DNA of 64,000 nt, taken from NCBI RefSeq assembly GCF_001724815.1, contig NZ_MEDO01000014.1:124001-188000 (forward strand). The letters run 5' to 3'. Positions 18,661-19,609 of this stretch are shown one piece after another. This stretch comes from Arenimonas sp. SCN 70-307. GTDB lineage: Bacteria > Pseudomonadota > Gammaproteobacteria > Xanthomonadales > Xanthomonadaceae. A program made the position numbers and the translations under genes. The notes beneath the pieces are model-generated. The model was not told the DNA's origin. It searched no databases and saw only the letters and a program-made list of their open reading frames with translations. How positions within the stretch are numbered: the stretch's first letter is position 1; every line of letters starts with the position of its first letter.

Positions 18661-18663
18661 CCT

Positions 18664-18685
18664 GTGGGAGGGCCTTCAGGCCCGA
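18664..18685. repeat. Single REP-like palindrome
   Basis: A GTGGGAG head followed by GGGCC-TTCA-GGCCC and CGA, 3 bp after the suhB stop. Same family as 42218-42241, 54862-54937 and 59333-59384. Confidence 0.75.
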
Positions 18686-18778
18686 GCTGCCAGGAGATCC
18701 CAGCGCCCGCCTTTCTTCGCTCTGGCACAGCGCAAGAAGAAGGATCTTCTCCCACCTGAGGCTATGGCGCCGTCGTCA

Positions 18779-18849
18779 CCGGGAAAGCGAGGATCGATTC
18801 CTCCTCCGTGAAGCCTTTATGTCGGAGGAATCGACCCTCGCTTTCCCGG
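18779..18849. repeat. Left 26-bp hairpin with conserved 19-nt loop
   Basis: Arm 18779-18804 pairs with 18824-18849 (25 of 26 positions) around the loop TCCGTGAAGCCTTTATGTC at 18805-18823. The loop is identical, in inverse orientation, to that of the right hairpin, while the stem sequence differs. Confidence 0.9.
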
Positions 18850-19444
18850 CGCCGCCGGTGCGTGCCGGCTTGGGCGCCCAACGGAAGGCCCGTGGCTGCG
18901 GGCTCCGATGCTTGCGCGTGGGGATCAGGACCAAGGCGGTCCATCTTTCTCGCTGACCTCGTTTAGCTAAGCAGTTCAAGGCCAGTGGCCGCCGACGGCC
19001 CATCGTTACGCGTCCCTCCGGACGCGAGATGCCGAGTCCTGGCCAGCGTGGAAGGTGGCCAGAGTGGGAGTCCTATCCGCCCGGCGGCGGGTGTGAGGGC
19101 GAGGCCTGGAGCCTGAGTCCATTCTTTTCCGACGACGCCTCGGCGATCGCTACGGAGCGGTCGGAAAAGCATGGGCCGCCCATCACCGCCAAGGCACCGC
19201 ACCCGCCGCCGGGCGGATAGGTCCATCAATCTAGCCATCTTCCGGGCTCGCGGTGGCGCCACTCCCAGCGTCCGGAGGGACGCGTCGCGATGGGCCACAG
19301 CGGCATTCAGGCCGTGAACCGGGTTAGCCAAACCTGATCAGCAGGAAAGATGGACCGCCTTGGTCCTGATCGGTACGCGCAAGCATCGGAGCCCGCAGCC
19401 ACGAGCCTTCCGTTGGGCACCCAAGACGAAACGCACCGGCGACG

Positions 19445-19515
19445 CCGCGGAAGTGGAGGTCACTTCCTTCGACATAAAGGCTTCACGGAGAAGGAAGTGA
19501 CCTCCACTTCCGCGG
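19445..19515. repeat. Right 26-bp hairpin with the same 19-nt loop
   Basis: Arm 19445-19470 pairs perfectly with 19490-19515. The loop at 19471-19489 is the exact reverse complement of the left hairpin's loop. Read in the same orientation, the two stems match at 17 of 26 positions; eight of the nine differences are compensated on the opposite arm. Confidence 0.9.
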
Positions 19516-19560
19516 TGGCGACGGCGCCAGAGCCGACCCCGGACTTGGGAGAAGAACCAA

Positions 19561-19591
19561 GAAAAAGGCCCGCCGATGGCGGGCCTTTTCG
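19561..19591 (-). terminator. Bidirectional terminator downstream of secF
   Basis: GGCCCGCC-GATG-GGCGGGCC-type stem flanked by an A-run (19562-19566) and a T-run (19586-19589). On the minus strand the A-run becomes the T-tract following secF. It lies about 20 bp after the secF stop. Confidence 0.85.
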
Positions 19592-19609
19592 TTGCTGCGA
19601 ACGCAGGAG

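Follow-up and report, generated by a model that had tools for sequence, protein, structure and literature searches.

A giant palindromic, transposon-like element with two compensated hairpins between suhB and secF of Arenimonas sp. SCN 70-307

The window, a 64,000-nucleotide stretch of Arenimonas sp. SCN 70-307 DNA, contains an 817-bp imperfect palindrome between suhB (inositol monophosphatase family) and secF. The features of this interval are as follows:

18734..18741, unstranded: putative left copy of the target-site duplication, AAGAAGAA, matching 19559-19566 at 7 of 8 positions
18742..19558, unstranded: whole non-autonomous element, an 817-bp imperfect palindrome, with ends set by the ISL3-type terminal repeats and flanking repeat
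18742..18761, plus strand: left terminal repeat, GGATCTTCTCCCACCTGAGG, matching the L163 ISL3-family insertion sequence at its right terminal repeat over 18/20 bases
18779..18849, plus strand: hairpin H1, stem 18779-18804 / 18824-18849, loop 18805-18823
18850..19093, unstranded: left long arm of the giant palindrome (approximate), comprising the left parts of inverted repeats I1 and I2
19119..19174, unstranded: central hairpin-like region (I8), 75% complementary
19200..19444, unstranded: right long arm of the giant palindrome (approximate), from inverted repeats and arm comparison
19445..19515, minus strand: hairpin H2, stem 19445-19470 / 19490-19515, loop 19471-19489 on the minus strand
19537..19558, minus strand: right terminal repeat, GGTTCTTCTCCCAAGTCCGGGG on the minus strand, 21/22 identical to the left terminal repeat of the L163 insertion sequence
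19559..19566, unstranded: putative right copy of the target-site duplication, AAGAAAAA, within the T-tract of the terminator-like hairpin that follows secF

H1 and H2 are the outermost hairpins, located just inside the ends of the palindrome. Comparison of H1 with the reverse complement of H2 shows that both are 71 nt in length (26+19+26) and share an identical 19-nt loop, TCCGTGAAGCCTTTATGTC. Seventeen of the 26 stem pairs are unchanged and nine are changed, eight of which are Watson-Crick in both copies; the ninth, pair 12 counted from the loop, is A-C in the left hairpin and G-C in the right. These values reproduce exactly those given in the first-pass annotation of this DNA, to which we add that both hairpins are carried by a repeated, transposon-like element of 817 bp. 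The pattern is not due to chance, and both hairpins lie within one large inverted repeat, the arms of which (18760-18970 / 19324-19534) are 84% complementary; an 821-nt region folds 40 standard deviations lower than the average of 20 dinucleotide shuffles. The two window hairpins score 97 and 92 bits with a covariance model of their family, built from 26 relatives including the right hairpin of the window and excluding the left. Four of the five open reading frames of at least 80 amino acids that overlap the element have no Pfam domain, which disfavours a coding function. The terminator-like hairpin after secF corresponds to inverted repeat I18 (19558-19574 / 19578-19594).

The left end of the element, GGTTCTTCTCCCAAGT, was placed by two closely related copies in one relative (L161 and L162) that are identical at 349 of their first 350 nt and then diverge. 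Copy L162 has a matching right end with the 8-bp repeat TTTTTGTT on both sides, and copy L161 is flanked by A7 on both sides. Insertion sequences of 1311-1312 bp in three relatives are bounded by the same terminal repeats and match Pfam DDE_Tnp_ISL3 at about 1e-68; the transposase of the one scanned with NCBIfam, that of L163, is assigned to the ISL3 family (NF033550, E 2.8e-101). The left end of the window element resembles the right end of the insertion sequence (18/20), and its right end resembles the left (21/22). ISL3 target duplications are 8 bp in length, and 8-bp A/T-rich repeats (AAAGAAGA, TTTTTCTT, and AAAAAAAT) lie beside three of the insertion sequence copies. The corresponding repeats beside the element match at 7/8 positions in the window copy (A-rich), 8/8 in the solo copy L082, and 6/8 in L011. 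These ends suggest that the element is most likely a non-autonomous transposon of a giant fold-back MITE type, for which mobilisation in trans by an ISL3-family transposase is plausible on sequence grounds.

The ISL3 assignment rests on the best-preserved copies, because most ends have decayed and the element and the insertion sequence do not occur together consistently across genomes. Of the 15 pair elements checked for ends, the window copy is alone in having a clear repeat at each end (2 and 0 mismatches of 14); those of L011 are decayed (5 and 6 mismatches), and the other 13 have neither terminal repeats on both sides nor a recognisable 8-bp target duplication. The solo copies (n = 3) include one that is clean, L082 (147 bp), and two with a terminal repeat on one side only and no recognisable 8-bp target duplication, L064, which is cut by a contig end, and L070. 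Clear terminal repeats are also lost from most other copies. With at most one mismatch, the terminal-repeat pattern matches in 9/27 genomes, with 15 of the matches in the genome of the window; the three of these 15 that were inspected are the window element and two matches within about 100 bases of a contig end, one of which (L196) reads as an insertion sequence end. At this threshold the pattern is absent from at least four genomes in which the element is present (G003, G004, G020, and G023), and the insertion sequence is present in G013 and G021, which have no element match.

With ISL3-family insertion sequences and the MITEs that they move, the element shares terminal repeats starting with GG and 8-bp A/T-rich flanking repeats, and with these MITEs the finding of no transposase domain inside it (four of five overlapping reading frames). 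Unlike the insertion sequences, its interior has no significant insertion sequence match beyond the ends, and unlike either group it forms a giant palindrome with two conserved-loop hairpins. At 817 bp it also falls outside the 70-300 bp given for MITEs in the available text of PMC3733652, a range into which the solo copy L082 would fit. Four solo forms (L003, L009, L123, and L082) have one hairpin with outer-type ends on both sides; in L009 the arm variants are mixed, as if it had been deleted from a large element via the repeated arms.

The first-pass annotation proposed searching for other copies of the loop and scoring the complementarity of their flanks, and copies were found elsewhere in this genome and in the genus. 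The exact loop occurs six times in the genome of the window and in 3/61 genomes, this one included. Among 31 rows picked by loop pattern without a stem filter, 30 have complementary flanks on reading and the last runs into Ns. The whole element is found at four places in this genome, each matching on both strands, and in 11/27 genus genomes at E ≤0.001, with at most 19 candidates scored per genome. The covariance model matches 15 of 297 family genomes. Nine of these matches are strong and confined to the same genus; the other six are weak, being single matches in other genera (E 4.4e-6 to 2.8e-4) that were dropped as having other loops on reading. In an order sample it matches 6/398 genomes at 1e-5, five in the genus and one weakly. 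Of 28 similar stretches, 17 are labelled Arenimonas, four belong to one Lysobacteraceae MAG, and seven are labelled otherwise; among these seven, only L077 and L098 contain the hairpin on reading. L077 and L098 are MAG contigs labelled Rhizobium and Ramlibacter with Arenimonas-type hairpins, and are perhaps misbinned. No match was found in phage and plasmid collections, nor in viral contigs searched with one loop pattern, and a phage or plasmid origin was rejected on the absence of matches in these collections.

The interval after secF was examined in 26 of the 27 genomes, in some of which suhB is not the neighbour and two of which (G010 and G022) are cut by contig ends. G000, G003, and G004 each have a large element there, G023 has a solo hairpin, and G011 has a piece at the end of a contig; the remaining 21 genomes, the nearest relative G021 among them, have no family hairpin at this site. 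Palindromes of other families occur after secF in G012, G022, G026, and G011, as though palindromes tended to land in this interval. Loop-pattern matches inside suhB of G001 and G024, obtained without a stem check, were discounted. Some insertions are old, as flanks shared at two further sites (L007/L037 and L023/L100) show. In two species compared at the suhB-secF site, eight of nine changed stem pairs are compensated and the ninth is G-T; a second shared site has one compensated pair, one mismatch, and five unaligned pairs.

Intergenic palindromes that often lie downstream of genes and form inverted dimers are also described for the GTAG and CGTC REPs and RAYT/TIRYT elements in the available text of PMC3733652, raising the alternative that the hairpin is recognised by a Y1 (IS200/IS605-like) transposase that moves the element. 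Y1 transposase genes are present in 21/27 genus genomes, and Stenotrophomonas long-TIR families lie beside such genes according to the same text, which describes both REP and long-TIR families. However, REP stems are given there as 5-13 bp (GTAG) or 8-9 bp (CGTC), compared with 26 bp here, and loops as 2-20 nt or 4-5 nt, compared with 18-20 nt here. Moreover, the 28 Y1 loci tested, four of which are repeats, cover 24 of the 53 places listed, and unlike in RAYT elements no family hairpin lies beside the gene at any of the 24. The best match near Y1 genes (22 bits) is a different palindrome, and the best-preserved copies of the element carry ISL3-type ends and 8-bp repeats instead. Mobilisation by a Y1/RAYT system is unsupported at these 24 of 53 places and is considered very improbable. 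Beside suhB, window positions 18662-18690 (GTGGGAGGGCCTTCAGGCCCGAG) resemble palindromes of about 70 nt (TGTAGGAGGGACTTCAGTCCCGA...) around a Y1 transposase gene in L153.

The hairpin stems can be compared with the long arms that accompany them in each element. The cleaner test comes from the four copies in this genome, which were found by DNA similarity, whereas most hairpins outside this genome were collected by loop pattern and form biased sets. Among the four, 45 of 48 changed stem-pair comparisons are changed on both sides and three on one side, compared with 14 on both sides and 290 on one side in the long arms (14/304, a ratio that omits 119 further comparisons in which neither pair is Watson-Crick) and with zero compensated and 19 one-sided in the outer end pairs. 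In A. daejeonensis (probably genome G003; 10 elements), the stems have 413 compensated and 89 one-sided comparisons, versus 350 and 2845 in the arms. The first hairpin of this species contributes 208 compensated and 18 one-sided; the second is less clean, with 205 and 71 and 2.3% G-T. The stems are nonetheless about as divergent as the arms, with mean per-site differences (stem/arm) of 0.149/0.147 in this genome, 0.186/0.178 in G004, and 0.212/0.269 in A. daejeonensis, a neutral comparison in which the long arms are assumed to be unconstrained. Alignment A1 comprises 26 of 30 rows chosen by loop pattern; the window's left hairpin, with its single mismatch, is among the four omitted. Of the 676 cells of A1, 97.6% are paired; both sides are changed in 122 and one side in a single cell, while 16 lack pairing. 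Four of five covariation measures of A1 exceed all 500 shuffles and the fifth, further pair types, exceeds all but four; all five exceed slid versions of the alignment. Across 69 hairpins, a set that also required a minimum of pairing and is biased accordingly, 45 extra Watson-Crick pair types occur. The L022 hairpin is one base shorter in both arms. Compensated changes with few one-sided intermediates, as looked for under template switching, are thus present, although more weakly in the second hairpin of A. daejeonensis.

These rates bear on the possibility that selection acts alone, with the hairpin being a functional DNA site, cruciform or single-stranded, in which second-site mutations mend mismatches and no copying occurs. 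By our own reasoning, purifying selection with harmful intermediates predicts slower stems, whereas unbiased arm conversion predicts compensated change at the neutral rate. Two-step compensation should slow the stems, yet they change about as fast as the arms, and the intermediates are few (the 17 one-sided or unpaired cells of A1 against 122 compensated). A host function at each locus for every transposon copy also seems unlikely. Several features nevertheless speak for selection on the hairpin itself. The loop is conserved, differing per site by 0.026 in this genome, 0.056 in G004, and 0.015 in A. daejeonensis, 3 to 14 times less than the stems, and its length in the family is 18-20 nt. The plus orientation of the loop points inward from the nearer end in 21/21 pairs; all pairs at the loci examined are (+)(-), with no inversion. 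Stem length is almost constant: in 69 hairpins, the spacing to the flanking motif is 24 on the 3′ side in 63 and on the 5′ side in 55, and 12 of the 14 other 5′ rows also have such a motif at 24 on reading. Just outside the stem, an A-C mismatch is kept at pair 27 in 38/44 hairpins. The four local copies have no gap in their hairpins against 61 in the inner body, and gaps are likewise rarer in the hairpins of A. daejeonensis (185, or 2.85 per 100 nt, versus 1540, or 6.4 per 100 nt, in the inner body). Taken together, we regard some selection on the hairpin as likely, and selection as the sole cause as rather doubtful. Conservation along stem positions 1-26 has a weak three-position periodicity, scoring 0.028 for all 26 positions and 0.008 for the inner 17; among the eight periods tried with the full stem, those of 6 and 9 give similar values (0.02 and 0.01). 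A coding reading of the hairpin was not adopted, as the frame shifts between loops of 18, 19, and 20 nt and many copies then run into stop codons.

The selected structure could alternatively be an RNA hairpin, such that putative read-through transcripts enter the element from either flank and fold the loop(+) hairpin first. The inward orientation of loop(+) from the nearer end in all pairs seen would suit this, as would the genomic setting: of 41 distinct copies, both neighbours were called in 32 by a crude ORF caller, and convergent genes flank 21 of these 32. However, RNA stems tolerate G-U, yet G-T accounts for only 7/1794 stem cells, in a set filtered for Watson-Crick pairing, and 1/676 in A1. 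The window has zero Rfam matches at gathering score, by which a known structured RNA was rejected, and the RNA explanation is held to be improbable.

The hairpins are therefore best described, with modest confidence that this is the probable case, as internal parts of an ISL3-moved fold-back MITE in which the stems are rewritten by arm copying while the loop and the geometry are selected. Under this proposal, the element would be moved in trans by an ISL3-family transposase and, in this case, would have inserted within the T-tract of the terminator after secF. When the hairpin is replicated, the nascent strand would fold back in it and extend on the opposite arm, as in quasipalindrome template switching, so that a mutation in one arm may be lost or passed to the other arm in a single step. 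Selection would keep the loop and its polarity as well as the stem length of 26 bp, with a putative element- or host-encoded factor reading the hairpin. Compensated stem change fits replication template switching, and arm copying is proposed because the stems differ about as much as the arms yet change in compensated pairs; selection is also proposed because copying alone leaves the loop, polarity, stem length, and A-C mismatch unexplained. The earlier suggestion that a fixed loop with covarying arms implies either selection on structure or arm copying is thus supported, and both halves of it seem to apply.

Several observations stand against arm copying. The A-C at pair 27 and a G-T mismatch at pair 36, present in 37/44 hairpins, persist unerased, such that copying must stop at pair 26 or selection must keep these mismatches. 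Some stem positions are nearly invariant. The least complementary bin is the centre of the palindrome in 15/22 elements, although not in the four of this genome, whereas blind fold-back should favour pairing there. Template switching can invert loops, whereas no inverted loop was seen, an absence that is explainable if the loop is selected. Two points slightly lower confidence in the overall proposal: the less clean second A. daejeonensis hairpin, and the decay of the ends in 14 of the 15 pair elements. A further and more tentative possibility is that the hairpin is a new DNA-structure recognition site, the stem of which would be renewed approximately neutrally by arm copying, with a dedicated loop partner in Arenimonas. 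Such a site would be characterised by the conserved loop, a nearly fixed 26-bp stem largely free in sequence, the basal mismatch, and the fixed polarity, and the hairpin would persist in copies with decayed terminal repeats. If so, template switching would have left a natural record in this family.

The known kinds to which the element relates are the ISL3-type MITE and quasipalindrome correction, and it is a new variation on both. As in the quasipalindrome template switching described in the available parts of PMC8794818 and PMC7202029, one arm of an imperfect hairpin would be rewritten from the other with one-step compensation. Unlike in that process, loop inversions are not seen here, copying seems to be limited to about 26 bp, and what is proposed is a long-term condition of a hairpin family found naturally in bacteria. 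In the portion of PMC8794818 available, template switching is proposed as a maker of compensated stems, and that work's own strongest evidence for maintenance by this route is called circumstantial. ERIC, YPAL, NEMIS, and other MITEs are likewise small, gene-less intergenic repeats as described in the available text of PMC3733652; the element is longer than ERIC, YPAL, and NEMIS, with two hairpins and ISL3-type ends, and is set apart from them by description only. Its strong matches are found only in Arenimonas, the one Lysobacteraceae MAG, and the two otherwise labelled MAG contigs. The term ISL3 does not appear in the main text of a MITE review, as far as that text was available (PMC10969869). 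Our literature searches found no paper on such an element, although one may exist in print.

This family provides an internal control for the open question of how perfect stems survive a changing sequence: each element has both short hairpins and long arms, equal in age and housed in one genome. Stems and arms diverge at similar rates, but changes in the stems come as compensated pairs, whereas pairing in the long arms decays; replicative arm copying thereby becomes testable in bacteria. The family also serves as a warning that covariation alone is no proof of selection for RNA structure.

A single hairpin in L159 (positions 1991-2070; G012) has a similar loop (TCCGTGGAGCATCTTATGTC) and an otherwise different long stem. 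Elsewhere in the window, positions 2597-2650 match the hairpin model weakly (24.8 bits, E 0.0013), and positions 431-473 hold a further exact inverted pair of 19-mers, close together.
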